From Sinosporangium album (GTDB lineage: Bacteria; Actinomycetota; Actinomycetes; Streptosporangiales; Streptosporangiaceae), in assembly GCF_900100605.1 (NCBI RefSeq), contig NZ_FNCN01000043.1, positions 1-47,053 of the forward strand: 47,053 bases of DNA. The letters are read 5' to 3'. A program made the translations under genes and the position numbers. Below the pieces are notes generated by a model. The model was not told the DNA's origin. It made no database searches and saw only the letters and a program-made list of their open reading frames with translations. Numbering within the stretch: position 1 is the first letter of the stretch; every line of letters starts with the position of its first letter. Below are positions 19,839-38,385 of the stretch, piece after piece.

Positions 19839-20187
19839 GGCCACCACCCCCGGGGAGGCACCGGGACCGCGACCGCGGCGCGGGCAGCCGGGAACGCGGA
19901 TGACCGAACCCGGCGCGCGGGTGGCCGGAGGCGGACCCCCTGGACCGGTCGGCGACATGCGGCAGCGGGTTCTCCGGCTGCGCCTTGACGGGCAGGTGCA
20001 CGCAGCCGGGCACCACCTCAAGCGCCGCGACCCGCCGGCCGTGCCCTCGGTCCCCGGCACCGATCGGCTCCCGGAGGCGGGCCTCCACCCGCCCGCCCGG
20101 GACCGGGCGGCGGCACCACGGGCACCGCACCACGCGGTGGCCGAGGTCGAACGCAGCACCGGGAGAGGTGGGCACCTGGCGGGTCAC
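19831..20187 (-). CDS. Small protein overlapping the tnpB start (transposon cargo?)
   Basis: A 118-codon frame from GTG 20187 begins VTRQVPTSPGAAFDLGHRVV and contains CPWC followed by a possible second ligand pair (CVH). It then becomes basic and low-complexity, ending inside the tnpB start (8-base overlap at 19838). The first 60 residues look protein-like (RCPWCRRPVPGG, VAALEVVPGC) and could bind zinc; the tail does not. I do not recognise a family. It could be a passenger gene of the transposon or left-end sequence that happens to be open. Confidence 0.4.
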   Translation of the reverse strand: MTRQVPTSPGAAFDLGHRVVRCPWCRRPVPGGRVEARLREPIGAGDRGHGRRVAALEVVPGCVHLPVKAQPENPLPHVADRSRGSASGHPRAGFGHPRSRLPAPRSRSRCLPGGGGRA

Positions 20188-20540: not shown

Positions 20541-21437
20541 TTACTCCTCGCCGCGGAGGGGCAGGCCGGCGGCGCGGGCCTCGACCTCGTAGAGGGCGGC
20601 GTAGTCCTCTTCGGCGAAGCCGTGGCCGATGGCGGTCTGGATGAGCTGGTGGACCATGGAGCTCAGCGGCATGGGCACCTCAAGGGTGCGGGCCGCGCCC
20701 AGACCGAGGTCGTAGTCCTTGCGGAGCATCTTGTTGTTGAAGGTGGGCGTGTAGTCGCGGGCGACGATCGCGCGGGACTTGTGGTTGATGAAGGTGGAGC
20801 CGAGCACCGAGCCGTTGATGAAGCTGGTGAAGGCGGCGCGGGTGACGCCGCCCTTCTCGGCGAGGGCGGTGACCTCGACGAGGGCCTGGGTGATCATGCC
20901 GAGCAGCAGGTTGTGGCAGATCTTGACCAGGCGGCACTCCTCGCCCGGGCCGGCCCACACGACGGTGGGGGCCATGACCTTGAGGTAGCCCTCGACCTCG
21001 TCGAAGGTGGCCTTGGGGCCGGAGGTGACGATGGCGGCGCGGCCTTCGGCGACCATGTGCGGGTTGCCGCTGATGGGCGAGGCGATGAAGGCGACGCCCG
21101 CTTCCTCGGCGGCGGCGCGGACCTCGGCGGAGGCCTCGGCGGAGACGGTGGAGCAGTCCACGATGATCTTCGGACGGCGCTCGGCGGTGAGCAGGCCGCC
21201 CTCGCCCTTGGTGACGGCGATCAGGTCGGCGGAGGCCGACACCATGACGAACACGATGTCGTTGGCGCCCAGCTCGGCGACGCTGCCAGCCACCTTGGCG
21301 CCCTTGGCGACGAGGGGCTCGGTCTTGGAGACGGTGCGGTTCCACACGGTCACGTCGGCGCCGCTGTCGAGCAGCATGCCGGACATGACGGCGCCCATGT
21401 TGCCGGTGCCGAGCCAACCGATGCTGTGCTTACTCAT
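20541..21437 (-). CDS. NAD(P)-dependent beta-hydroxyacid dehydrogenase (3-hydroxyisobutyrate dehydrogenase family)
   Basis: 298 residues from ATG 21437 (AGGAGAG upstream). It has the Rossmann motif IGWLGTGNMGAVMSGML at the N terminus, VTVWNRT, the DCSTVSAEAS substrate-loop region, ASPISGNPHMVAEGRAAI, and the catalytic Lys in CRLVKICHNLLLGMI (family consensus K-x2-N-N; here K-x2-H-N). The all-helical C-terminal domain includes RKDYDLGLGAARTLEVPMPL. Family members oxidise 3-hydroxyisobutyrate, tartronate semialdehyde and related beta-hydroxyacids. As last gene of the minus-strand catabolic cluster, it probably handles a hydroxyacid or aldehyde product of the upstream enzymes; the substrate is not predictable from sequence. 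Confidence 0.88.
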   Translation of the reverse strand: MSKHSIGWLGTGNMGAVMSGMLLDSGADVTVWNRTVSKTEPLVAKGAKVAGSVAELGANDIVFVMVSASADLIAVTKGEGGLLTAERRPKIIVDCSTVSAEASAEVRAAAEEAGVAFIASPISGNPHMVAEGRAAIVTSGPKATFDEVEGYLKVMAPTVVWAGPGEECRLVKICHNLLLGMITQALVEVTALAEKGGVTRAAFTSFINGSVLGSTFINHKSRAIVARDYTPTFNNKMLRKDYDLGLGAARTLEVPMPLSSMVHQLIQTAIGHGFAEEDYAALYEVEARAAGLPLRGEE

Positions 21438-21550
21438 ATCTACGCTCTCTCTCCTGATGCGCATGGTGCGCACGCATTGGTTTCGTACGGCGGCGCACCG
21501 GCCACTCGCCCACGCCGGGGGAGGGCGGACGAATGGCCGGTGCACACGGT

Positions 21551-21578
21551 GGCCCGGCGGCGGGTCCTCCGCCGGGCC
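21551..21578. terminator. Intercistronic stem-loop between E1 beta and the dehydrogenase
   Basis: GGCCCGGCGG and CCGCCGGGCC form perfect 10-bp arms around an eight-base loop. A second pair, CACCGGCCA...TGGCCGGTG (about 21506-21543), flanks it. In a same-strand cluster these may attenuate or set 3' ends rather than terminate fully. Confidence 0.6.
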
Positions 21579-21653
21579 GGTCCCGGGCCGCCGGTCCACA
21601 GAGTGGGCCTGGCTGCGCCTTTTCCACGGGGGTCCCCGAGGGGGCCCTGAGGG

Positions 21654-22634
21654 TTAGCCCTTGAGGGCCTTGGCCACGGTGTCGGCGATGCGCCGAGGCG
21701 TGGGCAGGGCGAGGTCCTCCAGGCTGTCGGCGGACGGCAGCGGGATGTGAGGGGTGGTGATGCGGATGGGGGCGCCGTCCAGAGCGTCCCAGCGCTCTTC
21801 GGTGACGATCGACACGATCTCCGCGCCCCAGCCGCACAGACGCGGGTTCTCCTCGACGGTGAACAGGGTTCCGGTCTTCTCCACCTCGCTCAGGATGGTC
21901 TGCGTGTCGAGCGGAACCAGGCTGCGCACGTCGACGACGGTGGCCTGGATGCCGTGCTCCTCGGCGAGGAGGTCGGCCGCGGCGAGCGACCTCGGCACCA
22001 TGGCGGCGAGCGCGACGATGGTGGCGTCGCCGCCTTCACGGCGGACGACGGCCTTGCCGAGCTCGTCGACGATCTCCCCGTCGGGCACTTCCTCCTTGGA
22101 CGCGTAGAGCGCCTTGTGGTTGAAGAAGACGACCGGGTCCTCGTCGCGGACGGCGGCGGCCATGAGGCCGACGACGTCGCGGGGGGTCGCGGGAGCGACG
22201 ACCTTGAGGCCGGGGATGGACATGGCCCAGTTCTCGATCGACTGGGAGTGCTGCGCGCCGAACCGCAGGCCGGCGCCGTTGCCGCACTGGATGACCAGCG
22301 GGAACGACACCTGGCCGTCGGACATGTAGCGGCTCTTGGAGATCTCGTTGGCGACGAGATCCCAGCAGACCGCGAAGAAGTCGCTGTACATGATCTCGGC
22401 GATCGGGCGCAGCCCGGTCATGGCCGCGCCCATGGCGGCACCGAGGATCGCCTGCTCGCTGATGGGTGTGTCCCGCACCCGCAGCGGGCCGAACTCCTCA
22501 AGCAGTCCTACGGTCGTCTTGAAGACGCCGCCGGCGGCGGCGACGTCCTCACCGAGGAACACCACCCTGTCGTCCCGGCGCATCTCCTGAGCGATGCCGC
22601 GGGCGACAGCGCTGCGATAGGTCAACAAACTCAC
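21654..22634 (-). CDS. Thiamine-pyrophosphate dehydrogenase E1 component, beta subunit
   Basis: 326 residues from GTG 22634. Pyruvate/acetoin dehydrogenase E1-beta signatures: YRSAVARGIAQEMRRD, VVFLGEDVAAAGGVFKTT, RVRDTPISEQAILGAAMGAA (Glu that activates thiamine pyrophosphate), FRFGAQHSQ-like LRFGAQHSQSIENW, and the C-terminal VEENPRLCGWGAEIVSIV domain. Full length for the family. With the alpha subunit it decarboxylates a 2-oxoacid or cleaves acetoin and passes the acyl group to a lipoyl domain. It is separated from the lipoyl gene by a hairpin (22710-22742), which may adjust subunit ratio. No E2 catalytic or E3 gene follows. Confidence 0.92.
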   Translation of the reverse strand: MSLLTYRSAVARGIAQEMRRDDRVVFLGEDVAAAGGVFKTTVGLLEEFGPLRVRDTPISEQAILGAAMGAAMTGLRPIAEIMYSDFFAVCWDLVANEISKSRYMSDGQVSFPLVIQCGNGAGLRFGAQHSQSIENWAMSIPGLKVVAPATPRDVVGLMAAAVRDEDPVVFFNHKALYASKEEVPDGEIVDELGKAVVRREGGDATIVALAAMVPRSLAAADLLAEEHGIQATVVDVRSLVPLDTQTILSEVEKTGTLFTVEENPRLCGWGAEIVSIVTEERWDALDGAPIRITTPHIPLPSADSLEDLALPTPRRIADTVAKALKG

Positions 22635-22709
22635 TGGATCTGCACTTCTTTCCTGTGAACGAGAGATTCTCCCCGGTCCGCGACCGCGCAGGAGACCTGT
22701 CGTGCCCCC

Positions 22710-22742
22710 GCCGTCCCCCGCACGTCTCCGTGCGGGGGCGGC
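22710..22742. terminator. Intercistronic stem-loop between lipoyl gene and E1 beta
   Basis: GCCG(T)CCCCCGCACG and CGTGCGGGGGCGGC pair around TCTC with a single bulged base, ten bases after the lipoyl-protein stop on the minus strand. It is a likely partial terminator or mRNA-stabilising stem. Confidence 0.6.
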
Positions 22743-22751
22743 TCACAGGGG

Positions 22752-22991
22752 CTAGTCGGGGTCGATGACGCCGAGAACGGTTCCGATGTCGACAGTCTCA
22801 CCGGCCTGGACCCGGATCTCGCGCAGGACCCCCGAGACGGGGGCAGGTACCTCTGAGTCGACCTTGTCCGTGCCGATCTCCAGCAGCGGTTGGCCGGCCT
22901 CCACACGGTCACCGGGCTTGAAATACCAGGAGTTGATGGTGCCGTCATCAACGGTTTCCCCCATGCGGGGCATGACCACTTCGACGCTCAT
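22752..22991 (-). CDS. Free-standing lipoyl (biotinyl/lipoyl-attachment) domain protein
   Basis: 79 residues, a single lipoyl domain and nothing else: MSVEVVMPRMGETVDDGTIN, FKPGDRVEAGQPLLEIGTDK, then VDSEVPAPVSGVLREIRVQ and a final GTVLGVIDPD. The modification Lys is Lys43 in the ETDK-like motif GTDKVDS. It lacks the subunit-binding and acyltransferase domains of an E2. Placed between E1 alpha and E1 beta, it is presumably the acyl or electron carrier of this E1. Whether an E2 core is borrowed from housekeeping complexes or replaced is open. The domain resembles 2-oxoacid dehydrogenase rather than GcvH or biotin carriers. Confidence 0.92.
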   Translation of the reverse strand: MSVEVVMPRMGETVDDGTINSWYFKPGDRVEAGQPLLEIGTDKVDSEVPAPVSGVLREIRVQAGETVDIGTVLGVIDPD

Positions 22992-23060
22992 TGCTGTTCT
23001 TCACCCCGATTCATGCGTTCGTTCGTACGGCAGGCTGAACGATCCGGAGCGCTTGCGCGC

Positions 23061-24065
23061 TCAGTTCCGCCACTCCGCGCCGCCGTCGGCCCAGACATTC
23101 GTGTAGAGACGCTCGGGCTTCGGCCACTCGCCGGCCTTGGCCTCCTCGGTCGCCGCGTCCACCTCGACACCGATCTCGGCGTCGATCTTCTCGAACACAC
23201 TGGGGTCGACTCCCCGGGCGATCAGGCGCGCCCGGTAGGCGGGAAGGGGATCCTTCTCCAGCCATTCCGCGACCTCGGCGGGGTCGCGGTACTTCGCGGG
23301 ATCGGCCCGGGAGTGCCCGCCGTGCCGATAGGTGACGGCCTCGATGATGGAGGGGCCGCCGCCCGCGCGGGCGAGATCGACGGCCTTCTTCGCGGTGAGG
23401 TAGACCTCTTCCACGTCGTTGCCGTCGATGACGATCCTGGGCAGGTTGTAGCCGGCCGCCCGGTCGGCGGCGGGGTGCTCGACCGCGGTGATGGTGTCGG
23501 TCTTGGTGTACTCCATGTAGAGGTTGTTCTCACACACGAAGACGACCGGCAGATTCCAGATCACCGCGAAGTTGAGCGCCTCGTGGAAGGCGCCGATGTT
23601 GGTCGCGCCGTCGCCGAAGAAGCAGACCGTGACCTGGCCGCTGCCGCGGTACTGCGCCGACCAGGCGGCGCCGTTGGCGATGACGAGCTGGGCGCCGATG
23701 ATCGCATACGACCCGAGCACGCCGCGTTCGGCGTCGATGAGGTGCATCGACCCGCCCTTGCCGTGCATGAGGCCGTTGTCGCGGCCGAGCAGCTCGGCCA
23801 TGAGCGGCGCGAGCGGGGTGCCCCGGGCGACCAGGTGGTTGTGACCGCGGTAGGTCACGAAGGTGTAGTCGCCGTCGGCCATCGCCTCGGCGACGCCGGA
23901 GGCGACGGCCTCTTGGCCGATGCCGAGGTGGGTGGTGCCCTTGACCAGGTTCTGCATGAACAGGTCGTAGGCACGCTTCTCGAACTGGCGGGCGGTACTC
24001 ATCGACCGGTACAGCGAAATGCCCAGCTCTTCCGAGATCTCGGATGAACTTTGGACTTCCGTCAT
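23061..24065 (-). CDS. Thiamine-pyrophosphate dehydrogenase E1 component, alpha subunit
   Basis: 334 residues from ATG 24065, seven bases after GAGG. Family signatures: HLGIGQEAVASGVAEAM, YRGHNHLVARG, LMHGKGGSMHL and the thiamine-pyrophosphate motif GDGATNIGAFHEALNFAVIW followed by NLPVVFVCENN. The phosphorylation-loop-like YRHGGHSRADPAKYR follows. Closest in feel to acetoin/pyruvate dehydrogenase E1 alpha (AcoA/PdhA types). The gene starts 14 bases after the M24 gene stop and precedes the lipoyl gene, so it is expressed with them. Confidence 0.92.
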   Translation of the reverse strand: MTEVQSSSEISEELGISLYRSMSTARQFEKRAYDLFMQNLVKGTTHLGIGQEAVASGVAEAMADGDYTFVTYRGHNHLVARGTPLAPLMAELLGRDNGLMHGKGGSMHLIDAERGVLGSYAIIGAQLVIANGAAWSAQYRGSGQVTVCFFGDGATNIGAFHEALNFAVIWNLPVVFVCENNLYMEYTKTDTITAVEHPAADRAAGYNLPRIVIDGNDVEEVYLTAKKAVDLARAGGGPSIIEAVTYRHGGHSRADPAKYRDPAEVAEWLEKDPLPAYRARLIARGVDPSVFEKIDAEIGVEVDAATEEAKAGEWPKPERLYTNVWADGGAEWRN

Positions 24066-24078
24066 GTCAGTCCTCACA

Positions 24079-25326
24079 TCAGTACTGGTTGGTGACGAAC
24101 AGCTCGTCGGCGGGGAACTTGGTCAGCACCTCGCAGCCGTCGGCGGTGACGACGACCTCCTCCTCGATGCGGGCGGCCGACACGCCGTCGGTCGCCGGGC
24201 AGTAGGTCTCCAGGGCGAAGACCATGCCCTCCTGGATCTGCATGGGGCTGTCCAGGGAGCTGAGGCGGCTGATGATCGGGCGCTCGTGCAGGGCGAGGCC
24301 GAGGCCGTGCCCGAAGAGCAGGCCGAAGGCCTCCTTCTCGTCGTTCATGCCGATCTCCTGCGCCGTCGGCCACAGCAGCGCGACGTCGGAGGTCGACACA
24401 CCCGGCTTGATGGCCTGGATCGCGACGTCCATCCACTCGCGGGCGCGCACGTAGGCGTCGCGCTGCGGCGCGGTGGACTTGCCCACCGCGAAGGTGCGGT
24501 AGTAGCAGGTCCGGTAGCCGTTGAACGAGTGCATGATGTCGAAGAACGCCTGGTCGCCCGGGCGGATCATGCGGTCGGAGAAGTTGTGCGGGTGCGGGTT
24601 GCACCGCTCGCCCGACACGGCGTTGATCGACTCGACGTCGTCGGAGCCCATCTCGTAGAGGCGCTTGTTGGCCAGCGCGACGATCTCGTTCTCGCGCACG
24701 CCCGGCTTCAGCGCCTCGACGATGTCCTGGTAGACACCGTCCACCATGGCCGCCGCCATCGAGAGCAGGGTGATCTCGTCGCGGTTCTTGATCTGGCGGG
24801 CGTCGAGCATGGTCTGCTGACCGTCGCGCACGTCGATGCCCTGCTTGCCGAGCTCCGTGAGCATCGGCATGTCGACGATGTCGACACCGATCGGCATGCC
24901 GCCGACGCCGGCGTCCTCAAGGCGGCCCTTGATCTCGCGAACGGCGTTCGCCATCAGGTCGCCCGGAGGCACCGCACCGCGCATGGTGGTCCAGGAGGAG
25001 AGGCAGTTCTCCGGCTTCATCCACGGCGCGTACATGCGGTTGTGCACGGCGGCGGAGCCGAAGTCCCACAGGATCAGCTCGCCGGTACGCGTGTAGATCG
25101 CGTAGCGCGACAGCTTCTCCCGCGTCCACTCCCCGATCGCGATCCCGGTCAGGTAGCGGATGTTGTTGTTGTCGAAGACCAGGACCGCGCCGAGGTCGGA
25201 CTGCTCCAGCGCCTCCTGGATCCGACCGATGCGGTACTTGCGCAGCCGGTCGAAGTTGATCCGCTCCTCGAAGTCGACCAGCATGTTGCCCGGAGCGGGG
25301 GCGACGGGGATCCTCGGGATGGTCAC
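24079..25326 (-). CDS. M24 (creatinase/prolidase-fold) family protein with altered metal site
   Basis: 415 residues from GTG 25326 behind a strong AGGAGGT. An N-terminal creatinase-like domain (VLVFDNNNIRYLTGIAIGEW) precedes a pita-bread C-terminal domain. Aligning with the M24 ligand set gives Asp263, His340 (FGHGLGL), Glu373 (VFALETY) and Glu388 (ARIEEEV). The second Asp of the D-x10-D motif is Cys274 (FNGYRTCYYRTF). Loss of a bridging ligand argues against ordinary aminopeptidase action; non-peptidase members (creatinase, the DMSP lyase DddP, ectoine hydrolase) show that the fold can take on other chemistry. Overall length and order resemble DddP-like proteins, but this is only a weak analogy. 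It heads the second half of the operon, after a stem-loop. Confidence 0.85.
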   Translation of the reverse strand: MTIPRIPVAPAPGNMLVDFEERINFDRLRKYRIGRIQEALEQSDLGAVLVFDNNNIRYLTGIAIGEWTREKLSRYAIYTRTGELILWDFGSAAVHNRMYAPWMKPENCLSSWTTMRGAVPPGDLMANAVREIKGRLEDAGVGGMPIGVDIVDMPMLTELGKQGIDVRDGQQTMLDARQIKNRDEITLLSMAAAMVDGVYQDIVEALKPGVRENEIVALANKRLYEMGSDDVESINAVSGERCNPHPHNFSDRMIRPGDQAFFDIMHSFNGYRTCYYRTFAVGKSTAPQRDAYVRAREWMDVAIQAIKPGVSTSDVALLWPTAQEIGMNDEKEAFGLLFGHGLGLALHERPIISRLSSLDSPMQIQEGMVFALETYCPATDGVSAARIEEEVVVTADGCEVLTKFPADELFVTNQY

Positions 25327-25352
25327 GAATACCTCCTGGATATTTCATGTGA

Positions 25353-25400
25353 CGTACGGCTCGCGCCGGGAGCCGCGCCGGTTCTGGCGCGAGCCGTACG
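25353..25400. terminator. Stem-loop with 15-bp perfect arms between dppF and the M24 gene
   Basis: CGTACGGCTCGCGCC (25353-25367) and GGCGCGAGCCGTACG (25386-25400) pair perfectly around an 18-base loop. It lies 24 bases after the ATPase stop and 27 before the M24 start on the minus strand. It could end part of the transport transcript and uncouple transporter from enzyme levels. No other feature fits the 97-base gap. Confidence 0.7.
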
Positions 25401-25423
25401 GTTGTGGGGATGGCGTAGGGATG

Positions 25424-26467
25424 TCACCCGCGCACGGTGGCCCCGTGGTAGCAGGCCACCTGCTGGGTCGGAGAGAGCGGCGTGGTGAGCACAGGGATGT
25501 CGCCCTTGCACACGTCCGTCACGAAGGTGCAGCGGGTGTGGAAGGGGCAGCCCGGCGGCGGGTCGAGCGGGCTCGGCGGTTCGGAGACCGGGCCGAGCTC
25601 CCTGCGCCGTGCCGAACGTTCCGCCTGCTTGTCGGGGTTCGCCACCAGGGTGGAGGCGAGCAGCGTCTGGGTGTAGGGGTGGCCGGGAGTGTCGTAGACC
25701 TCGTCGGCGGGTCCCAGTTCGGCCAGACGTCCCAGGTAGAGCACGCCGATGGTGTCGCTCACGTGGCGCACGACGTCGAGGTCGTGGGCGATGAACAGGT
25801 AGCTCACGCCCAGCTCCCGCTGGAGCTCCATGAGCAGGTTGATGACCTGGCTCTGGGTGCTGACGTCGAGTGCGCTGACGGCCTCGTCGCAGACGATGAG
25901 CCGGGGCTTGGTCGACAGGGCCCTGGCGATGGCCACGCGCTGCCGCTGGCCGCCCGAAAGCTCGTGCGGGTAGCGGTCGGCGTGGTAGGACGGCAGGCCG
26001 ACGCTGTCGAGGAGGCCGATGACCTCCTTGTCGAGCTGCCGGCTCGGCATCGGCCGGTGGCGGTTGATGCCCTGGCCGAGGGTGGTGCCGATGGTCTGCC
26101 TCGGGTTCAGCGACGACATCGGGTCCTGGAACACCACCTGCATGTCGCGGTGGTACGAGGCGGGGGCGCGGCGGCCGAAGCCGCCGACGTCCTGCCCGTC
26201 GAAGATGACCTTGCCCTCGGAGATCGGCGCGAGCCGCAGGATGGCCCGGCCGATGCTGCTCTTACCCGAACCGGACTCGCCGACCAGGCCGAGCGTCTTG
26301 CCCGCCTCGATGCCGAAGGTGACATTGTTGACCGCGGCGAGGCTGGTGGTGCGTCCGGTGATGCTCCGGCCGAGCGGGTAACGCACGGTGAGGTTCTCGA
26401 CCGACAGCAGCGGGCGCGCTCCCGGCCGCGCCCCGGCCCGCTCCTCCAGCATGGTCTCCCTGCTCAT
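25424..26467 (-). CDS. Oligopeptide-type ABC transporter ATP-binding protein (DppF/OppF-like)
   Basis: 347 residues from ATG 26467, overlapping the preceding stop (ATGA). Walker A GLVGESGSGKSS, Q-loop VVFQDPMSSLNPRQT, signature LSGGQRQRVAIARAL, Walker B RLIVCDEAVSALD and the switch His in IAHDLDVVRH are all present. The C-terminal oligopeptide-transporter extension has the three-cysteine pattern CPFHTRCTFVTDVC, which in OppD/F-type proteins can hold an Fe-S cluster. It energises the importer with the fused permease-ATPase and DppB-like permease upstream. Confidence 0.93.
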   Translation of the reverse strand: MSRETMLEERAGARPGARPLLSVENLTVRYPLGRSITGRTTSLAAVNNVTFGIEAGKTLGLVGESGSGKSSIGRAILRLAPISEGKVIFDGQDVGGFGRRAPASYHRDMQVVFQDPMSSLNPRQTIGTTLGQGINRHRPMPSRQLDKEVIGLLDSVGLPSYHADRYPHELSGGQRQRVAIARALSTKPRLIVCDEAVSALDVSTQSQVINLLMELQRELGVSYLFIAHDLDVVRHVSDTIGVLYLGRLAELGPADEVYDTPGHPYTQTLLASTLVANPDKQAERSARRRELGPVSEPPSPLDPPPGCPFHTRCTFVTDVCKGDIPVLTTPLSPTQQVACYHGATVRG

Positions 26468-28443
26468 TTGGCACCTGCCAGCTTGAGTTCGACCGCCCGG
26501 CGGCAGCGCACGCCGTCGTCGAGCGGGATGAAACCGGTCTTGCACTCCTCCACGGCGTAGGTGCAGCGGGGGTGGAAGCGGCATCCCTGCGGCCACGCCC
26601 AGGCGGGCGGAACCCGTCCGGGGATGGTGGCGAGGGCCTCGCTGCCGTTCGCGCCGTGCGGCATGGCGGCGAGCAGCGCCTCGGTGTACGGGTGCCGGGG
26701 CTGGTTGAACGCGCCGCGTACGGTGTTCACCTCGACGACCTGGCCCGCGTACATGACGCCGACGCGGTCGCAGATATCGGCCACCACGCCGAGGTCGTGC
26801 GTGATGAGCAGCAGCGACATGTTCAGCCGCTCCCGCAGACCCGCGAGCAGGTCGAGCACCTGCGCCTGGATCGTCACGTCGAGCGCGGTGGTCGGCTCGT
26901 CGGCGATGAGCAGCTCGGGGTCGCAGGCGAGCGCGCCGGCGATGACGACGCGCTGCGCCATACCACCGGAGAACTGGTGCGGGTAGTCCAGCAGCCGCTT
27001 GCGCGGAGCGGGGACGCCGACCAGCGACAGCAGTTCGACCGCGCGTTCCTCCGCCTGCTGCTTGGTGAGGCCGCTGTGCGAACGGATGGCGTCGGTGAGC
27101 TGGCGGCCCACGGTGTGCACCGGGGACAGCGCCGAGATCGGGTCCTGGAACACCATGCCGACGCGGCGTCCGCGGATCTGGCGGAGCGCCTCCCCGCCGA
27201 GGCCGGTCAGCTCGGTGCCGTCGAGCTGGACCGAGCCGCCGGTGACCTCGACGCCCTTCGGAAGGAGGCCGAGGATCGCGGCGGCGGTGATGGACTTGCC
27301 GCAACCGGACTCGCCGACCAGGCCGAAGGTCTCGCCCTTGCCGATGTGGAAGGAGGCGCCCGACACCAGTTCGGCGCCGGTGTGCGTGGTGACGGTGAGC
27401 CCGCTGACGGTGAGCAGCGCGTTCTTCGCCGCGTCGGCGGTGGGAGCGCTCGCCGGGGCGGTGGTGACGGCCTTGGCGGTGCCGTTCTGCTCGGCCTCGG
27501 CGGTGGCGGCGGTGTTCTTGGCGGGCTTCTTGCGCTTGCCGCCGCCGACGCCGCGCGGCGAGCTGGCGTCGCGCAGGCCGTCGCCCAGGAGGTTGAACAC
27601 GAGCACGCTCAGCGTGATGGCCGCACCGGGGAAGATCGCGAGCAGCGGCTGCTCGCTGACGTGCTGGCGCGAGGCGTCGAGCATGGAGCCCCAGCTCACC
27701 GCGGTGGCGTCGACGCCGATGCCGAGGAAGCTCAGCGTGGCCTCGATGAGCAGTGCCGTACCGAGGGCGATGGACGCCTGGACGATCAGCGGCGGGGCGA
27801 TGTTCGGCAGGACCTGCCGGAACATGATCGACGAGGATCTCAGGCCGAGCACGCGGGCCGCGTCGACGTAGAGCCGCTCCCGTTCGGCGAGCACGACGGC
27901 CCGGGCGACCCGCATGAAGCCGACGGCGAAGATGATGCCGACGGCCAGCATGGCCTTGCCGAGGCCGTTGCCGATGACGGCGACCAGGGCGAGGGCGAGC
28001 AGCAGGGCGGGGATGGACTGCATGACGTCGGCGATGCGCATGCCGATCCGGTCCCACCAGCCGCCGCGGTAGCCCACGAAGACGCCGAGGCTCACGCCGA
28101 GCACGAGGCCGATGGCCACGCTCTGCGCGGAGGCGATGAGCGCGGTCTGGGTGCCGTAGATCAGGCGGGACAGCGTGTCGCGGCCGAGGTCGTCGGTGCC
28201 GAGCAGGAAGGCGCTGCTGGGGCTCTCCAGCCGGTGCTGCACGTTCGGCTGCAGTGGGTCGTACGGCGCGAGCAGCGGCGCCGCCAGGGCGATCACGATC
28301 TGTAGCGCCAGGATGGCCAGGCAGATGAGCGTGATCGGCTGCCGGACCGCCCGGTAGAACATCCCGATCTTCTGCCGGGCCGTCGGGGCGTCCTCGGCGG
28401 TGCTCGGAGGCGGGTCGGCGAGAGCGACGGGTTCCATTGTCAC
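26464..28443 (-). CDS. Fused ABC permease and ATP-binding protein (DppC-DppD type)
   Basis: 659 residues from GTG 28443 (GTGA overlap with the permease stop; ATG 28437 is alternative). Residues about 1-290 are a DppC-type permease with LLGTDDLGRDTLSRLIYGTQ, six membrane helices and the EAA-like loop ARVLGLRSSSIMFRQVLPNI. A Lys/Ala linker (about 300-345) leads to an ATPase with Walker A VGESGCGKS, Q-loop VFQDPISALSP, signature FSGGMAQRVVIAGAL, Walker B LLIADEPTTALD, H-loop THDLGVV and the C-terminal three-cysteine motif (CRFHPRCTYAVEEC). Such fusions occur in actinobacteria. The two domains are fused in frame with no sign of a frameshift. Confidence 0.93.
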   Translation of the reverse strand: MTMEPVALADPPPSTAEDAPTARQKIGMFYRAVRQPITLICLAILALQIVIALAAPLLAPYDPLQPNVQHRLESPSSAFLLGTDDLGRDTLSRLIYGTQTALIASAQSVAIGLVLGVSLGVFVGYRGGWWDRIGMRIADVMQSIPALLLALALVAVIGNGLGKAMLAVGIIFAVGFMRVARAVVLAERERLYVDAARVLGLRSSSIMFRQVLPNIAPPLIVQASIALGTALLIEATLSFLGIGVDATAVSWGSMLDASRQHVSEQPLLAIFPGAAITLSVLVFNLLGDGLRDASSPRGVGGGKRKKPAKNTAATAEAEQNGTAKAVTTAPASAPTADAAKNALLTVSGLTVTTHTGAELVSGASFHIGKGETFGLVGESGCGKSITAAAILGLLPKGVEVTGGSVQLDGTELTGLGGEALRQIRGRRVGMVFQDPISALSPVHTVGRQLTDAIRSHSGLTKQQAEERAVELLSLVGVPAPRKRLLDYPHQFSGGMAQRVVIAGALACDPELLIADEPTTALDVTIQAQVLDLLAGLRERLNMSLLLITHDLGVVADICDRVGVMYAGQVVEVNTVRGAFNQPRHPYTEALLAAMPHGANGSEALATIPGRVPPAWAWPQGCRFHPRCTYAVEECKTGFIPLDDGVRCRRAVELKLAGAK

Positions 28444-29384
28444 TGCGGCCTCACCTTCGGGTTGATCAGGCCGTACGCGATGTCGGCCGCGAGGTTGACC
28501 AGTAGCACGAAGACCGCGACCACGACGATCGTGCCCTGGAGAACGGGGTAGTCGGCCCGGACGACGCTGTCCATGAGGAGCGTGCCGAGGCCCGGGATGG
28601 CGAAGATCCGCTCGATGACGAAGCTGACCGCGACCAGCACCGACATCTGGATGGCGACGACGGCGAGCACCGGCACCATCGCGTTCTTCGTCGCGTAGCG
28701 CAGCACGATCGCGCCGCGTTTGACGCCTCTGGCCAGCAGGGTCTGGACGTAGGACGAGTCCAGGGCCTCGATCATCGCGCTGCGGACCTGCCGGGCGATG
28801 ACCGCTGCGGTATGCACGCCGAGGGCGAGCGACGGCAGCACCAGGCCCATCAACCAGCCGACGGGGTCCTCGAACAGCGGTGTGTAGCCGATGACCGGGA
28901 ACCACCCGAGGTTCACGGCGAACACCAGCGCTAGGAGCAGGGCGAGCCAGAAGCTGGGTACGGCGAGGCCAGCGGCGACCACGACCGTCAGCAGGCGGTC
29001 GGCCACGGTGCCGGGGCGGAGCGCGCCCAGGACGCCGAGGGGGATGCCGACGATCAGCGCCACGGCCATTCCGGCGATCGCCAGCGACAGCGTGATGCCG
29101 ATGCTGTCGCCGATCGATTCCGAGACCGACAGGCTGGTGTAGAGCGAGGCGCCGAGGTCGCCCTGGACGGCCGAGACCAGCCAGGAGACATACTGCTCGG
29201 CGACCGGCCGGCCCAGGCCGAGCTGCTCGGCGAGCTGAGCCTTGGCCTCGGAGGAGGCCCCCTCACCCAGGATCTGCGCGACCGGGTCGATCGGCGTCGC
29301 GTGGATGAGGAGGAAGACGAAGACCGAGACGAGCAGAAGCGTGGGCAGGGCGGACAGCAGTCGTCCGACGACGAATTTGATCAT
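28440..29384 (-). CDS. Oligopeptide-type ABC transporter permease (DppB-like)
   Basis: 314 residues from ATG 29384, overlapping the amidohydrolase stop (ATGA). An N-terminal transmembrane helix (LLSALPTLLLVSVFVFLLIH) is followed by the periplasmic region typical of DppB, then five more helices and the EAA loop (YVQTLLARGVKRGAIVLRYA). The end ADIAYGLINPKVRPQ is family-typical. It forms the membrane pore with the DppC half of the downstream fusion. Confidence 0.93.
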   Translation of the reverse strand: MIKFVVGRLLSALPTLLLVSVFVFLLIHATPIDPVAQILGEGASSEAKAQLAEQLGLGRPVAEQYVSWLVSAVQGDLGASLYTSLSVSESIGDSIGITLSLAIAGMAVALIVGIPLGVLGALRPGTVADRLLTVVVAAGLAVPSFWLALLLALVFAVNLGWFPVIGYTPLFEDPVGWLMGLVLPSLALGVHTAAVIARQVRSAMIEALDSSYVQTLLARGVKRGAIVLRYATKNAMVPVLAVVAIQMSVLVAVSFVIERIFAIPGLGTLLMDSVVRADYPVLQGTIVVVAVFVLLVNLAADIAYGLINPKVRPQ

Positions 29385-30748
29385 GCCGCCGGAACTTTCC
29401 TGAGGTGCGGTGGCATGGCGGGGTGCTCCTCTCCGAGCACGCGGGTCCTGACACGCTGGATGGCGGCACCCGCGTCGCCGGCGTCCAGGTCGGTGAGGCG
29501 GCCACCCTGCTTGCGCACGACGCCGCCGATGACCACGGTGTCCACGTCGGCGGGAGCCGTACGCAGGACGACGTGGTTGGCCGGGTCGCCGAGGGCCATG
29601 CCGTACGGTCCCGGGTCGATGACCACGAGGTCGGCGAGGTAGCCGGGGGCCAGCCTGCCGAGGTGGTCGCCGAGGCCGATGTGCTGTGCGGCGTTGACGG
29701 TGGCGAACTCCAGCATCGTGCGGGGCTCGACGAGCGGAGTCCCGGGGCGGCGCTCCAGCGGCCAGCGGTCCGCTTCGCGCTCCTCCTGCGCCTGCAGGTA
29801 GCGCATGATGGTGAAGGTGATCCGCATCTGGCCGAAGATGTCGACCTTGGTGCGGGCGGCGGTGTCGACGCCGAGGCTCGGCGTGACACCGGCCTTGAGG
29901 GAGCGCGCGATCACCGTCATGGAACGTCCGCCGACGAATTCGCCCTCGGGGGTGAAGGAGATGCCGCCGCCCATGGAGGCGAGCACCTCCAGTTCGTCGT
30001 CGGCCGCGACGTTGGCGTGCGCCGGCAGCATGTCGCCGCCGAGCAGCCCGAGCTGGTGGAGCTGGCGGAGCTGGCCGCCCACGTTCTGGTGGAACGTCAT
30101 CCGCAGGCCGAGCTCGCGCGCGAGCGCGATCTCGGTCTCCACCTCGTCGACCGAGCGGTATTCCATGGAGGACACGGCCAGGCCCAGGCGGATCAGCTCG
30201 GCGGGGTCGTCGCCGAACTGGGCGTGCAGGTCGCGCACCTTGTCGAGCCGCCACTGGTGGTCGGTCTTCAGCTCCTCGAAGCTGCCGAGCATGCCGATCG
30301 CGAACACGGCGCGCTGGCCGTTGTCGCGGTGCGCCCGGACCGACTCGTCGGCGTGCTCGGGCGTCATGGTGTTGTGGCAGAAGTTCAGCACGGTGGTGAT
30401 GCCGGCGTCGATCATCTCCACGCCCGCCGCGAACGTCGCGTCGTACATGTCCACCGGGGTGAAGCTCTCCCGCAGTGAGAACACATTGTTGTGGTAGTCC
30501 GCGTTGCCCCAGCCGTGCGCGTAGCCGCCCCGGAGGGGGGCCTGCCACGAGTGCATGTGCGTGTCATGCAGGCCCGGGATCACGATCTTGCCGCGGGCGT
30601 CGATCACCTGGGCGCCCTCGGCCTCAAGGCCGGCGCCGACCGCGGTGATCCGGTCGCCCTCGATGAGGATGTCACCTAGCACGTCCCCCAGCAGGGGGTC
30701 CATGGTGAGGACGATTCCGCCCTTGATGAGTAGGCGGCGTTCAGACAC
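29381..30748 (-). CDS. Amidohydrolase family protein (ATZ/TRZ-like aminohydrolase)
   Basis: 455 residues from GTG 30748, overlapping the previous stop by eight bases. The composite beta-sandwich start (LLIKGGIVLTMDPLLGDVLG) leads into the metal motif GLHDTHMHSW (His64, His66). Further ligands follow: His in MTFHQNVGG, His in PAHANVA and Asp in SLGVDTAARTKVD. The end has the usual GRLAPGYLADLVVIDPG sandwich return. Members are metal-dependent deaminases or chlorohydrolases acting on guanine, S-adenosylhomocysteine, triazines and the like. All ligands are present. Its link to the transporter suggests it acts on the imported compound. Confidence 0.88.
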   Translation of the reverse strand: MSERRLLIKGGIVLTMDPLLGDVLGDILIEGDRITAVGAGLEAEGAQVIDARGKIVIPGLHDTHMHSWQAPLRGGYAHGWGNADYHNNVFSLRESFTPVDMYDATFAAGVEMIDAGITTVLNFCHNTMTPEHADESVRAHRDNGQRAVFAIGMLGSFEELKTDHQWRLDKVRDLHAQFGDDPAELIRLGLAVSSMEYRSVDEVETEIALARELGLRMTFHQNVGGQLRQLHQLGLLGGDMLPAHANVAADDELEVLASMGGGISFTPEGEFVGGRSMTVIARSLKAGVTPSLGVDTAARTKVDIFGQMRITFTIMRYLQAQEEREADRWPLERRPGTPLVEPRTMLEFATVNAAQHIGLGDHLGRLAPGYLADLVVIDPGPYGMALGDPANHVVLRTAPADVDTVVIGGVVRKQGGRLTDLDAGDAGAAIQRVRTRVLGEEHPAMPPHLRKVPAA

Positions 30749-32417
30749 GCGAAACCCCCAGCGAACGGTTGGCGGTGGTGACGGGCAGGGTGCCGTACGG
30801 CTCGGCGGTGTGGACGACCTTGCCGCCGACGACCGTCAGGACCGAGAAGAGGTGCTGGATCTGCTCCAGGTCGACCGTGTAGTAGTCGTCGCTGAGCACC
30901 GCGAGGTCGGCGAGCATGCCCGGCTCAAGACGGCCGCGCTCTTCCTCCTCGAAGCTGAACCACGCACCGGCGGCGGTGTAGCCGCGCAGCGCCTCCTCTC
31001 GGGAGAGCAGGTTGTGCTTGGCCAGCGTCTCCTTGCCGTTGACGGTCTGGCCGGTGAGGAACCACGCGAGGGTGGTGAACGGGTTGTACGACGCGACGCG
31101 CATGGCGTCGGAGCCGAGGCCGACCCGCATGCCCATGTCCAGCATCTTGCGGAACGGCGGAGCCTCCGCCACGACCTCCTCGCCCCAGATCTCAAGGGCG
31201 TCCTCGCCCTGGAAGCGGAACAGGCCCTGGGCGAGCACGCCGCCGCCGAGCGCCTGGATGCGCGAAAGGTCCACCGGCTTGAGAGGCTCGGCGTGGACCA
31301 GCGACCAGCGCAGGCCGCTGATGTCGAACTCGGCGTGCACCTTCTCCCAGGCCGTCAGGATCGCGTCGATCGTCTCGTGCTGGTGGGCGTGGGCGTGGAT
31401 GGTCCAGCGGTTCTTGGCCAGGTCGCGGAACATCTGAAGGAACTGGTCCCGCGCCTCGGCGCCCACGTCGGCGGGCTGGCCGATCTTGTCCAGCGACCGG
31501 TAGAGGATCAGCTCGCCGGCGCCGAGGACGCGCAGCATGCCGTCGCCGAGGTCGAGCGGGGTGAACCGCTGGTAGCCGGCCATCTCCTCGAACTCCCGGC
31601 CCGCCGCGGAGGCGTGCAGGGTGAGGCGGGTGCGGACGGTAAGCTCACCGCGCCGCCACGTCTCGTACATCGCGCGGTAGGTGTCGGGGCCGCTGTTCAT
31701 GCCGCCGCCGTCGATGGCACCGGTGATGCCGAGCCGGTTGAGCTCGCGCGACATGGTCGCGGTCGAGGCGACCTGCTCCTCGAAGGTGGGGGCCGGCATG
31801 CGGCTGTAGAACCACTTCATCATCTCGGTGCCGCTGACCTTGCCGGTGAACCGCCCGTCGGCGTCGGTCTCGAAGTACTGCGGGCCGAGCTCGTTCACCA
31901 GGTCGGCGTTCACGTCGATCGCCTGCATGGCGGCCGTGTTCAGAACCGCCCAGTCGTAGAGGAACTGCACGTAGACCGGGTTGTTCGGGGCGACGGCGTC
32001 GAGTTCCTCACGTGTCGGGCCGCGGCCCTCGGGGAACTGGCCCGGGTGCCAGCCGCCGATGGTCCTGATCCACGCGCCGGGCGGCAGCGAGGCGGCGCGG
32101 CGGCCGATGGCCTCAAGGGCGGAGGCGAGGGAGTGCTCGTTCTCCCAGCGCACCTCATCGTTCCAGGTGCGCCCGGCTCGCATGATGTGCACGTGCGAGT
32201 CGATGAGGCCGGGGATGACCCGGCGCCCCGCGAGGTCGACCACCTGCGTGGCCGGGCCGGCCAGCCTCCTGATCTGCTCGCTGGTGCCGACGGCCGAGAT
32301 CCGGTCGCCGGTGATCGCGAGTGCCTCCACTTCGTCGGCCGGGTCGTAACCCGCCATCGTGGTGATGCGGCCGTCGACCAGGATCAGGTCGGGCGTGCTG
32401 TTCTCGTTGAGGGCCAT
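30741..32417 (-). CDS. Amidohydrolase family protein (YtcJ-like)
   Basis: 558 residues from ATG 32417, seven bases after GGAGACACC. It begins LILVDGRITTMAGYDPADEV, has the metal motif IPGLIDSHVHIMRAG, then ITGAIDGGGMNSGP, HAHAHQHETIDAIL (His cluster), SLVHAEPLKP and GMRVGLGSDAMR (the terminal Asp). It closes with GRLEPGMLADLAVLSDDYYT. This is the large amidohydrolase_3 branch, often secreted or cytosolic hydrolases of unknown natural substrate. No signal peptide is visible here. Two unrelated amidohydrolases side by side suggest successive hydrolytic steps on one imported amide or heterocycle. Confidence 0.88.
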   Translation of the reverse strand: MALNENSTPDLILVDGRITTMAGYDPADEVEALAITGDRISAVGTSEQIRRLAGPATQVVDLAGRRVIPGLIDSHVHIMRAGRTWNDEVRWENEHSLASALEAIGRRAASLPPGAWIRTIGGWHPGQFPEGRGPTREELDAVAPNNPVYVQFLYDWAVLNTAAMQAIDVNADLVNELGPQYFETDADGRFTGKVSGTEMMKWFYSRMPAPTFEEQVASTATMSRELNRLGITGAIDGGGMNSGPDTYRAMYETWRRGELTVRTRLTLHASAAGREFEEMAGYQRFTPLDLGDGMLRVLGAGELILYRSLDKIGQPADVGAEARDQFLQMFRDLAKNRWTIHAHAHQHETIDAILTAWEKVHAEFDISGLRWSLVHAEPLKPVDLSRIQALGGGVLAQGLFRFQGEDALEIWGEEVVAEAPPFRKMLDMGMRVGLGSDAMRVASYNPFTTLAWFLTGQTVNGKETLAKHNLLSREEALRGYTAAGAWFSFEEEERGRLEPGMLADLAVLSDDYYTVDLEQIQHLFSVLTVVGGKVVHTAEPYGTLPVTTANRSLGVSRV

Positions 32418-32470
32418 TGGTGTCTCCGTGGTGGCGTCATTTCCTGGGGTGATCGAACCGCTTGTGGCGG

Positions 32471-34051
32471 TCACCCCTTGACCTTGGCTTCCTTGTAGCG
32501 GAAGAGCGCGACATCGTTGGTGGTGGACACGATGTTGTCGACCTTCTTGGGGTTGTAGGCCCAGAAGCCGGTGTAGCTGAAGTAGCCGCAGTCCAGCGCC
32601 TCTTCATCGACGATCTTGGTGATCTTCTGCCAGGCGGCGTCCCTGGCATCGGGCGTCTTGGCGTCCAGGGCCTCTTCCACAGCCGCGGTGATCGCGGGGT
32701 ACTCGACCTTCAGCGGGTTGCCGGACGCGTCGGGCGCGAACTTCGTCGTGTAGTAGTCGTAGGCGCCGGCGCGCGCGCCGTCCGACAGGATGGCGAGCGG
32801 GTACTTGCCGTTCTGGTAGGTGCTGAGGAACTGCGGGAAGTTCGGCAGCTCGACCGTGACGTCGATCCCGATCTCCTTGAGCTGGCTGCGGAAGAGCTCG
32901 GCGATCGGGCGCTGGGTGTCCCAGCTGATCAGAGTGAAGGCCACCTTGGGGTTGCCGAGCTCCTTCATGAGCTCCTTGGCCTTGGCCGGGTCGTAGGAGT
33001 AGCCCTTGACGTCGGGGTTGAAGCCCGGCTGCCCTTCCCTGAAGCGCTGCGTCTGGATCTCGCCCCTGCCGCCGAGCGCGGCGTCGATGTAGTCCTTGGG
33101 GTTGATCGCGTAGCAGATGGCCTGACGCAGCTTCGCGGGGTTCAACGTCTTCTTCGTGTCGTACATCTGCAGGTGCCACAGCACCGACGGGAACGACGCG
33201 GACGCGAAGCCTTCCTTTTCGGCCTTGTCTGCCAGGGCCGGCGTGGCCCAGACCACGTCGAACTGGCCGGTGCGCATCGCGTTGTAGAGGCTGTCGGCGT
33301 CGTTGATGTAGGTGACTTCGAGGTTCTGCGGGCCGACGCTGGCCTTGTCGTAGTACTTGTCGAAGTACTTCAGGGACACCTTCAGGCCGCGGGTCGACGC
33401 CGCCGTGTCGATCTTCCAGGGGCCGGTGCCGCTCGGCGTGGTCTTGTAGGAACCGTCGTCCAGCGCCTTCGGCGAGATGATGTAGGTGCCAAGCCGGGCG
33501 ATTTCCATGAGCAGGCTGGGCGCGGGCCGCTTGAGCTTGATGACCACCTCGGTGGGGCTCTTGGCGGTGACGCTCTCGACTTCCTTCATGCTGCCCTGGT
33601 AGGTGCTGGGCGTGGTGCGGACGCGCTCCAGGTTCTTGACGACCGCGTCGGCGTTGAACGGCGTGCCGTCATGGAAGGTGACGTTCTCGCGGAGGGTGAA
33701 GCTCAGCTCTTCGTCGCTCTCCTTCCAGCTCGTCGCGAGCTGGGGCTGGAGCGTAATGCCGTCCTTGGCCAGCGACAGCAGGCCCTCGTAGACCAGCGCG
33801 GTGTACGTCGCGTTCTGCTTGGTGATCGTCTCCCAGTCATCGAGACGCTGGTTGGTCCCGAAGTGGAGCGTTCCACTGGGACCCGCCCCCTGAGCTCCCG
33901 TCGGGGAGGCATCGTCCTCGGCCGGGGCGGCGTTCCCCCCGCCGCAGGCGGCCAGAACCGCGGCGGCGAGAAGGCCGCCGAACCCTGCGGTTAGGGTCCG
34001 GCGGGCACCACCGACCCGCCGTGAGGGGTGTGAAATGTTCTTGTTGTGCAC
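32471..34051 (-). CDS. Family 5 extracellular solute-binding lipoprotein of the peptide-type ABC importer
   Basis: 526 residues from GTG 34051. The N terminus has arginines, a hydrophobic core and the lipobox VLAAC (Cys36), so it is a lipid-anchored binding protein on the outer face of the membrane. The mature part shows SBP_bac_5 features: GTLHFGTNQRLDDWE, LATSWKESDEELSFTLRENV followed by FHDGTPFNADAV, GTGPWKI and LRQAICYAINPKDYI. It is the first gene of the cluster and lies opposite the XRE-cupin regulator. It defines uptake of a peptide-like or amide ligand, which the sequence does not identify. Confidence 0.94.
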   Translation of the reverse strand: MHNKNISHPSRRVGGARRTLTAGFGGLLAAAVLAACGGGNAAPAEDDASPTGAQGAGPSGTLHFGTNQRLDDWETITKQNATYTALVYEGLLSLAKDGITLQPQLATSWKESDEELSFTLRENVTFHDGTPFNADAVVKNLERVRTTPSTYQGSMKEVESVTAKSPTEVVIKLKRPAPSLLMEIARLGTYIISPKALDDGSYKTTPSGTGPWKIDTAASTRGLKVSLKYFDKYYDKASVGPQNLEVTYINDADSLYNAMRTGQFDVVWATPALADKAEKEGFASASFPSVLWHLQMYDTKKTLNPAKLRQAICYAINPKDYIDAALGGRGEIQTQRFREGQPGFNPDVKGYSYDPAKAKELMKELGNPKVAFTLISWDTQRPIAELFRSQLKEIGIDVTVELPNFPQFLSTYQNGKYPLAILSDGARAGAYDYYTTKFAPDASGNPLKVEYPAITAAVEEALDAKTPDARDAAWQKITKIVDEEALDCGYFSYTGFWAYNPKKVDNIVSTTNDVALFRYKEAKVKG

Positions 34052-34282: not shown

Positions 34283-35065
34283 ATGAACTCTCCCAAGCCC
34301 GGCGCCAGCCCCGGGCTCGGTGTAAGGCTACGCAAGATACGGACCGAGCGTCGCATGTCGCTGCGCGAGCTCGGCCAGCGGGCCGGGTGCTCGGCGAGCC
34401 TTATATCTCAGGTCGAACGCGGACAGAGCGCGCCCTCCGCAGGGGTGCTCTACGCTTTGGCCAACGAACTGCAGATCTCCCTCGACTACCTCTTCGGCGT
34501 CAGCGATGCGGAGGGCGCGCCCGCCCCGGTTCCGACCCCCATCCCCGAGGCCCCCTCGATCTCCTGGGGTGAGTACACGCCTGCTACCCAGATCGCTCAC
34601 TCCCCCGCCCCCGCGAGCCACGCCCCGGTGCCACCCCCGCCGGGCCATGCCGCCGAGGGCTCACTGCTCACCGAGGCCCCGCAGGGCGCCCCCATCACCG
34701 GCCCCGCCCTCGCCCCCGCCGTGCCCACCATCCTGCAGCGTGGAAGTACCAGGCGCACCATCGACCTCGCCAGCGGCGTGCGCTGGGAGCGGCTCACGCC
34801 GCAGGCGGACGGCCGCGTCGACTTCCTCGAAGTCGTCTACGCGCCCTTCGGCCGCTCCACCGAGTCCCGCACGCTGATCCGCCACGAGGGCCGCGAATAT
34901 CTGCTCGTGCTGGAGGGCCGCCTCCACGCGGACATCGGCTTCGAGACCTACGTCCTCGAACCGGGCGACTCGCTGGCGTTCGACCCCTCGGCGCCGCACC
35001 AGTACCGCAACATGACCGACCAGCCGGTCCGCGTGGTGTCGGTCGTCATCCACCGCGCCGACTGA
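34283..35065 (+). CDS. XRE-family regulator with C-terminal cupin domain
   Basis: 260 residues from ATG 34283 behind GAGGGGG. An HTH (residues about 14-68; LRKIRTERRMSLRELGQRAG, then SLISQVERGQSAPSAGVLYALA) is joined by a long Pro/Ala linker (about 78-150) to a cupin barrel (VVYAPFGRSTESRTLIRHEG, EYLLVLEGRL, LEPGDSLAFDPSAPHQYRN). This is the architecture of PuuR/SutR-type regulators, where the cupin senses a pathway metabolite. Divergent from the transport/catabolic operon, it is its likely local regulator. The linker is unusually long and low in complexity. Confidence 0.92.
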   Translation: MNSPKPGASPGLGVRLRKIRTERRMSLRELGQRAGCSASLISQVERGQSAPSAGVLYALANELQISLDYLFGVSDAEGAPAPVPTPIPEAPSISWGEYTPATQIAHSPAPASHAPVPPPPGHAAEGSLLTEAPQGAPITGPALAPAVPTILQRGSTRRTIDLASGVRWERLTPQADGRVDFLEVVYAPFGRSTESRTLIRHEGREYLLVLEGRLHADIGFETYVLEPGDSLAFDPSAPHQYRNMTDQPVRVVSVVIHRAD

Positions 35066-38294: not shown

Positions 38295-38385
38295 CGTCCA
38301 CGGACCGTGCACATGGCACATGGCACTGGGCACATGGCACTGGGCCCCGCCGCGTGGCAGCGGCCGGGCCCAGGGCGTGATCGGC

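Follow-up and report, generated by a model that had tools for sequence, protein, structure and literature searches.

The window, by which we mean the whole 47,053-nt stretch of Sinosporangium album DNA analysed here (contig NZ_FNCN01000043.1), carries eleven reverse-strand genes that run from position 34051 down to 20541 and have the appearance of a catabolic operon. Open reading frames (ORFs) and domain scans assign to these genes an ABC importer, two amidohydrolases, a protein with the M24 peptidase fold (termed Cys-M24 for a cysteine at one metal-ligand position), a thiamine pyrophosphate (TPP)-dependent E1 enzyme with a small lipoyl protein, and a beta-hydroxyacid dehydrogenase. A divergent regulator heads the set. 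The original prediction for this DNA, made by a model from the sequence, had described ten same-strand genes together with the dehydrogenase and the regulator. Its gene list and strand stand, but the dehydrogenase gene begins at 21437, where a ribosome site (AGGAGAG) lies 5′ of the start, and not at 21599, the start of the 352-aa ORF.

The regulator (REG; 34283..35065, + strand) belongs to the XRE family and has a C-terminal cupin domain (Pfam HTH_3 2e-13, Cupin_2 7e-16). The remaining genes lie on the - strand, beginning with a SBP_bac_5 solute-binding protein of an oligopeptide/nickel-type importer (32471..34051; Pfam SBP_bac_5 2e-65), whose best NCBIfam match, NikA-like, is under the cut-off. 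There follow AH3, an Amidohydro_3 hydrolase (30741..32474; Pfam 9e-85) that we take to be YtcJ-like, and AH1, an Amidohydro_1 hydrolase of the TRZ/ATZ/PRK08204 kind (29381..30748; Pfam 5e-23) that scores just under the cut-off of NF006056 (PRK08204; 377.2 bits, cut-off 391). Three further importer genes encode an OppB-type permease (28440..29384 by gene call; BPD_transp_1 2e-30 in the ORF 28440-30548), a fused OppC permease and OppD ATPase (about 26464..28443; BPD_transp_1, OppC_N, ABC_tran and oligo_HPY in a single frame) and an OppF-type ATPase (25424..26467; ABC_tran and oligo_HPY, with 333 bits against NF008453, cut-off 408). Downstream lie the genes for Cys-M24 (24079..25326; Pfam Peptidase_M24 3e-39), E1 alpha (23061..24077; E1_dh 5e-75), a 79-aa single lipoyl domain with a TDKV motif (22752..22991; Biotin_lipoyl 3e-22), E1 beta (21654..22634; Transket_pyr 3e-41, Transketolase_C 8e-34) and HIB, a dehydrogenase of the 3-hydroxyisobutyrate/tartronate-semialdehyde-reductase type (20541..21437; NAD_binding_2 8e-35, and NAD_binding_11).

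With the longest plausible starts, the junctions from the solute-binding protein gene to the second ATPase gene measure -4, -8, -4, -4 and -4 bases. A codon-based gene caller favoured later starts for AH3 (32417) and the OppC-OppD fusion (28437), with which two of these overlaps would become gaps (53 and 2 bases). The later junctions are +97 (second ATPase to M24), +1, +69 (before the lipoyl gene), +117 (before E1 beta) and +216 (before HIB). Promoter and terminator scans returned zero and zero matches, no more than shuffled sequence.

Several residues that we take to be active sites are at least 95% conserved among relatives of the two amidohydrolases and the dehydrogenase. These are H75, H77, H343, H375 and D437 of AH3 (nine rows; numbering of the 558-aa form), H64, H66, H220, H244 and D295 of AH1 (19 rows), presumably the HxH, H, H, D metal motif, and K172 and N176 of HIB (75 rows), presumably the catalytic Lys and Asn of the 3-hydroxyisobutyrate/tartronate-semialdehyde family. 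When scored on the 352-aa ORF, HIB falls under every substrate-specific equivalog cut-off (TIGR01505, 161.7 vs 340.75; TIGR01692, 138.8 vs 291.6; other listed models further off).

Recurrence of the gene set

Within a sample of 345 genomes of the window's order, relatives of the M24 protein (E <= 1e-30) are present in 82. The same sample holds 47 relatives of E1 alpha (E <= 1e-90), and an M24 relative lies at most 500 bp away from 34 of these and at most 20 kb away from 35. An M24 gene cut by a contig end adjoins a further E1 alpha at locus L189. The 7.06-Mb genome from which the window derives has six E1_dh genes, two of them beside an M24 gene. Given only six such genes in a genome of this size, chance adjacency on the scale of 34 in 47 is unexpected.

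The full set (an Opp importer with fused OppC-OppD, AH3, AH1, HIB, M24 and the E1 pair) is found in three further genomes. A member of the same genus (L040) has the order SBP5-AH3-AH1-OppB-OppCD-OppF-M24-E1a-LIP-E1b-HIB. Another genus (L043) has the gene order of the window, with an M24 protein 91% identical to that of the window, no lipoyl gene, and an aldehyde dehydrogenase (ALDH) gene after HIB. The XRE-cupin regulator is divergent at both of these loci. In a third genome, from another genus again (L051), the same importer, amidohydrolase, HIB, M24 and E1 genes are split over two blocks. Other forms include AH3, AH1, HIB, M24 and E1 at L093, as well as AH1, AH3, HIB, M24 and a split transketolase with a Liv importer at L180. 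Two Opp variants, L178 and L179, are stretches of a single contig in which M24 and a second AH3 gene lie about 27 kb apart. The OppC-OppD fusion has the same size in L040, L043, L051 and L179. Among the nine loci with AH3 of the window type, window included, an AH1-type gene is present in eight, HIB in all nine, M24 in eight and a TPP enzyme in eight. This gene-neighbourhood comparison bears out the original proposal that the genes belong together.

The contig that carries L178 and L179 (G082 C2) has a pair of Opp-AH3-HIB clusters, together with AH1-type genes, in about 40 kb of sequence. One cluster has M24, and the other has ALDH, VOC, a fused E1 and E2.

A wider collection of 131 loci was gathered from the window, 40 loci of the order, 10 plasmid stretches and 80 genome contigs matched by the peptide GYRTCYYR or GMVFALET. 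After removal of four duplicates and of L126, in which the M24 gene was not called, 126 loci remained. Gene calls were home-made, many contigs end early, and contents were counted anywhere in a stretch. On this basis, HIB is present in 87 loci, an E1-type gene in 76, ALDH of the succinate-semialdehyde dehydrogenase (SSADH) type in 55, a LacI-type regulator in 48, an E2 in 33, a hydrolase of the FrsA/DHPON-hydrolase type in 29, an AH1-type gene (adenine-deaminase-like proteins included) in 20 and an XRE-cupin-type regulator in 20. The gene lies no more than two genes from M24 in 63 of the 87 loci with HIB, 61 of the 76 with an E1-type gene and 16 of the 29 with FrsA. The E1-type loci comprise 50 split pairs, 17 fused forms and nine partial forms, the last including the split transketolases of L039 and L042. 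When only stretches of at least 19 kb are considered, 50 of 76 have an E1-type gene. We read these loci as a module in which Cys-M24 is fixed and is mostly accompanied by a beta-hydroxyacid dehydrogenase and a TPP enzyme, often also by an SSADH-type ALDH.

On a tree of the 126 M24 sequences, the E1 neighbour changes at least 26 times, 18 of these changes being forced by well-supported branches. The changes are nevertheless clustered, since the mean after shuffling is 39.3 changes and none of 500 shuffles is as low. Such frequent yet clustered change indicates that the M24-E1 pairing has been gained or lost repeatedly.

The remainder of the module varies. Importers are of the Opp, Liv, Rbs, NMT1 and TRAP types, and the front enzymes beside some Cys-M24 genes include an adenine-deaminase-like protein with a RidA-family protein, molybdopterin hydroxylase subunits, an LLM monooxygenase with a flavin reductase, and an amidase. 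Together with AH1 and AH3, these enzymes suggest amides and N-heterocycles as substrates. We favour, with somewhat more confidence than doubt, the view that the operon represents one form of a widely distributed and apparently undescribed catabolic module centred on Cys-M24, whose front end varies with the substrate and which in the window would serve amide or N-heterocycle breakdown ending in TPP-dependent C-C cleavage.

A number of observations weigh against this view. Only seven of 32 AH3 homologues (E <= 1e-90, window included) lie at most 30 kb from M24 and the other 25 do not, so that AH3 is frequently encoded away from M24. Likewise, an AH1-type gene lies within two genes of M24 in only six of the 20 loci that have one, and an E1-type gene is absent from the stretch in 50 of the 126 loci, partly through contig ends. 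From the side of E1 alpha, 13 of the 47 homologues are not within 500 bp of M24, and at L185-L188 and L190 the E1 pair occurs in stretches without M24, in the company of an amidase and LLM, an SDR and beta-galactosidase, LacI-HIB, or ALDH and ECH. Neither ALDH nor HIB tracks E1 on the M24 tree (median p of 1 in a sign test on independent pairs). An E2 gene is found no more than three genes from E1 in 16 of the 17 fused-E1 and 10 of the 50 split-E1 loci, and at L182 (10861-16486, same order) HIB-M24-E1a-E1b continues directly into an E2 gene that is complete with its lipoyl and E3-binding domains. Within the window, the gaps of 97 and 216 bp are wide enough for the operon to be transcribed in more than one piece. 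Finally, some relatives appear polyol-like (RbsABC importers, zinc alcohol dehydrogenases and SDRs) and others carboxylate- or sulfonate-like (a TRAP transporter and the TauE family), so the N-heterocycle theme need not apply to the whole family.

Some of these loci have further neighbours of note. TauE/SafE-type exporter genes lie near Cys-M24 in L102, L119, L133, L135, L136, L142 and L143 (one assigned by domain scan, the others by clustering), several of them with TRAP-type genes as well, which hints that some relatives act on sulfonates or carboxylates. A cytosine/purine-type permease gene is located beside the E1 pair without M24 at L185. On a Paenarthrobacter plasmid (L087, 9190-13362), a 54% identical Cys-M24 relative is encoded a few genes from the sulfonamide resistance gene sulR. 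The idea of sulfonamide-heterocycle breakdown that this locus raises was dropped, because PMC10873849 found the heterocycles to be dead-end products in its test strains, which may not include strain R1.

The putative TPP-dependent step

The E1 alpha and E1 beta proteins are pyruvate dehydrogenase (PDH)/acetoin-type subunits with long conserved blocks, and are clear homologues of the corresponding subunits of acetoin and pyruvate dehydrogenase complexes. Those complexes have E2 and E3, whereas the window operon lacks both and its E1 alpha remains below PDH equivalog cut-offs (TIGR03182, 338.7 vs 393.85; TIGR03181, 238.9 vs 411.35). E1 beta exceeds a subfamily cut-off (NF006667, 332.7 bits vs 321).

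The 79-aa protein carries the TDKV motif, which we assume to be the lipoylation site. This protein aligns to the N-terminal portion of NF008854, a model of E1 beta, and E1 beta to the remaining portion; furthermore, a lipoyl domain is fused to E1 beta at L047. The free form thus departs little from an architecture already known. Between E1 alpha and E1 beta, four loci (window, L040, L052 and L189) have a lipoyl ORF; none was found at L043, L038 and L048. Lipoyl ORFs that run into contig ends at L100, L149 and L167 may be E2 fragments. The original prediction emphasized a free lipoyl carrier without E2 or E3. Pfam scans of the ORFs at 20541-34051 indeed revealed no E2 acyltransferase and no E3, but the carrier had to be rejected as a hallmark of these loci, as the gene is sporadic and is missing from the near-identical L043 operon.

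The prediction also implied that E2 and E3 genes would not regularly adjoin the E1 pair, which fits only part of the collection. In addition to the adjacent E2 genes counted above, an E2 occurs anywhere in the stretch in 16 of the 17 fused-E1 and 14 of the 50 split-E1 loci, and five roseobacter plasmid loci have the order E1a-E1b-lipoyl-ALDH-E2, with LpdA next in one of them. Split-E1 loci of the window's order have E2 in 0 of 19 cases in the main set; a rule that E2 is absent from this lineage is broken by L182, which lies outside that set. Elsewhere in the window genome there are six E2-domain matches, four of them above 130 bits, and one lipoamide dehydrogenase above cut-off, so that supply of E2 and E3 in trans is the simplest reading.

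Across the family the TPP step takes three forms, namely E1 alpha/beta, a fused E1 with E2, and a split transketolase. Split transketolases, with N and C halves as separate genes, occupy the E1 place beside Cys-M24 at L039 (10117-13258), which belongs to the window's own genome, and at L180 (14316-17419), both by Pfam, and at L042 by clustering with L039. The fact that a split transketolase can take this place makes acyloin cleavage a live alternative to 2-oxoacid decarboxylation. Specifically, the TPP enzyme might cleave an acyloin (alpha-hydroxyketone), as acetoin dehydrogenase does, rather than oxidatively decarboxylate a 2-oxoacid. The aldehyde released by E1 would then be oxidised by ALDH, and the acyl half would pass to lipoyl/CoA or, with transketolase, to an aldehyde acceptor. 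The SSADH-type ALDH in 55 of the 126 loci accords with such a scheme, as does an acetoin-reductase-like SDR (TIGR02415, 201 bits, below the cut-off of 304) whose gene precedes M24-E1-E2 on a roseobacter plasmid. In contrast, the window cluster has no ALDH gene, and ALDH is not coupled to E1 on the M24 tree. E1 alpha, moreover, scores best with pyruvate dehydrogenase models, albeit below their cut-offs, in an NCBIfam result that offered no acetoin E1 model for comparison. We consider acyloin cleavage possible, and lean against it.

One operon or two

The layout also admits two unrelated neighbouring units, an Opp-amidohydrolase operon that ends 97 bp before an M24-E1-HIB operon. The gap after the second ATPase gene is compatible with such an arrangement, and so is the location of most AH3 homologues away from M24. 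However, the same set recurs in L040, L043 and, rearranged, L051, with other forms in L093 and L178-L180, and the three AH3 homologues outside the window that are at least 63% identical all lie at most 30 kb from M24. An accidental juxtaposition is therefore improbable, and the reading of these genes as one version of a Cys-M24 module is retained.

The DNA flanking the operon encodes proteins of other kinds. Directly downstream of HIB (18654-20159, - strand) lies a gene for an IS605 OrfB/TnpB-like protein with a Cas12f1-like TNB domain; its place in L040 is taken by a gene for an SBF-family (bile acid symporter-like) protein. Upstream of the operon (35084-41369) are genes for a cytochrome P450, an S-adenosyl methyltransferase and two beta-lactamase-family proteins, and the P450 is conserved in L040 with 77% identity. 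Further away (3930-12593) are cobalamin-type genes (CbiJ/CobK, CobN, nitrite/sulfite-reductase half domains, CbiC and a tetrapyrrole methylase).

The Cys-M24 protein and a proposed pathway

The predicted structure of Cys-M24 is a full M24 fold (model pLDDT 87.5). Among solved structures, the best Foldseek match is the dimethylsulfoniopropionate (DMSP) lyase DddP (TM 0.83, 20-23% identity), a catabolic non-peptidase M24 protein that shares the two-domain fold. Six metal ligands are given for DddP in PMC4108388 (Asp295, Asp297, Asp307, His371, Glu406 and Glu421), Asp307 being the residue of interest here. The Cys-M24 counterparts are D263, M265, C274, H340, E373 and E388, where C274 is paired with Asp307 because the conserved Arg follows three residues later, the HMMER alignment opening a 2-residue gap there. 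Cys274 hence replaces the second metal-ligand Asp, in a C-Y-Y-R motif where prolidases have D-x-x-R-T.

This replacement is uniform in the family, and C274-Y-Y-R as a whole is invariant. Position 274 is Cys in 126 of 126 rows and position 265 is M, I or L in 124, while D263, H340, E373 and E388 are invariant. Because 76 of the rows come from a search that used the Cys motif as one of two peptides, the fair count for Cys is 50 of 50, window included. A control, the canonical M24 protein of the window genome (L004), keeps the Asp. At least 594 stretches of a one-genome-per-species collection match the Cys-M24 peptides, and 591 of these encode a relative (these are stretches, not species). A relative encoded on a haloarchaeal plasmid (L083), 36% identical, also has this Cys, and its gene adjoins an SDR gene.

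Loss of the Asp ligand to Cys makes it unlikely that Cys-M24 is an ordinary dipeptidase, in keeping with the doubt already voiced in the original prediction. If the protein were an Xaa-Pro-type peptidase, the operon would degrade an imported peptide, an idea that the Opp-type importer, the M24 fold and the label 'Xaa-Pro peptidase family protein' in many public plasmid records might encourage. Apart from the missing ligand, however, Cys-M24 falls over 100 bits short of each peptidase model listed in the NCBIfam result, and we judge this explanation very improbable. Least probable of all is that Cys-M24 works as a lyase of the DddP type on DMSP or some other onium compound, as the best fold match and best NCBIfam match (NF043017, residues 24-409) are set against only 114.5 bits for a cut-off of 600 and the loss of two of six metal ligands (Asp297 to Met/Ile/Leu, Asp307 to Cys).

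DoeA (ectoine hydrolase) and creatinase, both C-N hydrolases of small-molecule catabolism, also have the M24 fold and were matched to Cys-M24 by Foldseek, at 18-20% identity; the score against the DoeA model is 61.8 bits (TIGR02993, cut-off 613). On these NCBIfam scores and on the metal ligands, the DddP, DoeA and peptidase identities were all set aside. Cys274 could bind a metal or act as a nucleophile.

Gene content, synteny, recurrence, residue conservation and predicted fold together suggest the following series of reactions for the module as it occurs in the window. The Opp-type ABC importer would take up a small amide, cyclic amide or N-heterocycle, which AH3 and AH1 may open or deaminate. 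Cys-M24, as a putative non-peptidase, would then cut the product at a C-N or C-C bond, and HIB would oxidise a beta-hydroxyacid or reduce a beta-semialdehyde. E1 alpha/beta would cleave a C-C bond beside a carbonyl, and the acyl group would probably reach CoA via the small lipoyl protein, where present, or a housekeeping lipoyl-E2, with E2 and E3 drawn from elsewhere in the genome.

Known pathways resemble this scheme in part. A relative of the 2,6-dihydroxypseudooxynicotine (DHPON) hydrolase of nicotine breakdown (2jbw, E 2e-45, tested on L069) is encoded in 29 of the 126 Cys-M24 loci, at most two genes from M24 in 16, and some of these loci have molybdopterin hydroxylase subunits. The window operon differs in having neither a DHPON-hydrolase relative nor such hydroxylase subunits, although no search was aimed at nicotine genes themselves. 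Nicotinate fermentation combines an enamidase (an amidohydrolase) and a 2-hydroxymethylglutarate dehydrogenase (HIBADH family) in one pathway, and HIB matches the latter enzyme (3cky, 8e-28). We know of no counterpart of M24, E1 or the importer in that pathway.

No description of the gene set was found in the open-licence literature, a scope within which the negative result carries little weight. Catabolic operons with an ABC importer are of an ordinary kind; the unusual parts of this one are the Cys-M24 family and the repeated pairing of this family with TPP enzymes. It is conceivable, although we put this forward tentatively and at less than even confidence, that Cys-M24 represents a catalytic class new to the M24 fold, in which Cys is located at the second metal or substitutes for it, and performs the key step of an undescribed pathway. 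This pathway would occur in Actinomycetota, Proteobacteria, SAR324, Chloroflexi and haloarchaea and funnel many amides, N-heterocycles or polyols to one TPP-cleaved intermediate, and in the window the product of E1 would go to a free lipoyl protein, no E2 being dedicated to the step.

With one metal ligand missing, the 'Xaa-Pro peptidase' label of the plasmid records is doubtful. Should Cys-M24 be the marker of a common route of catabolism, a pathway is misnamed in many genomes, and the operon described here offers a compact enzyme set for finding its substrate.

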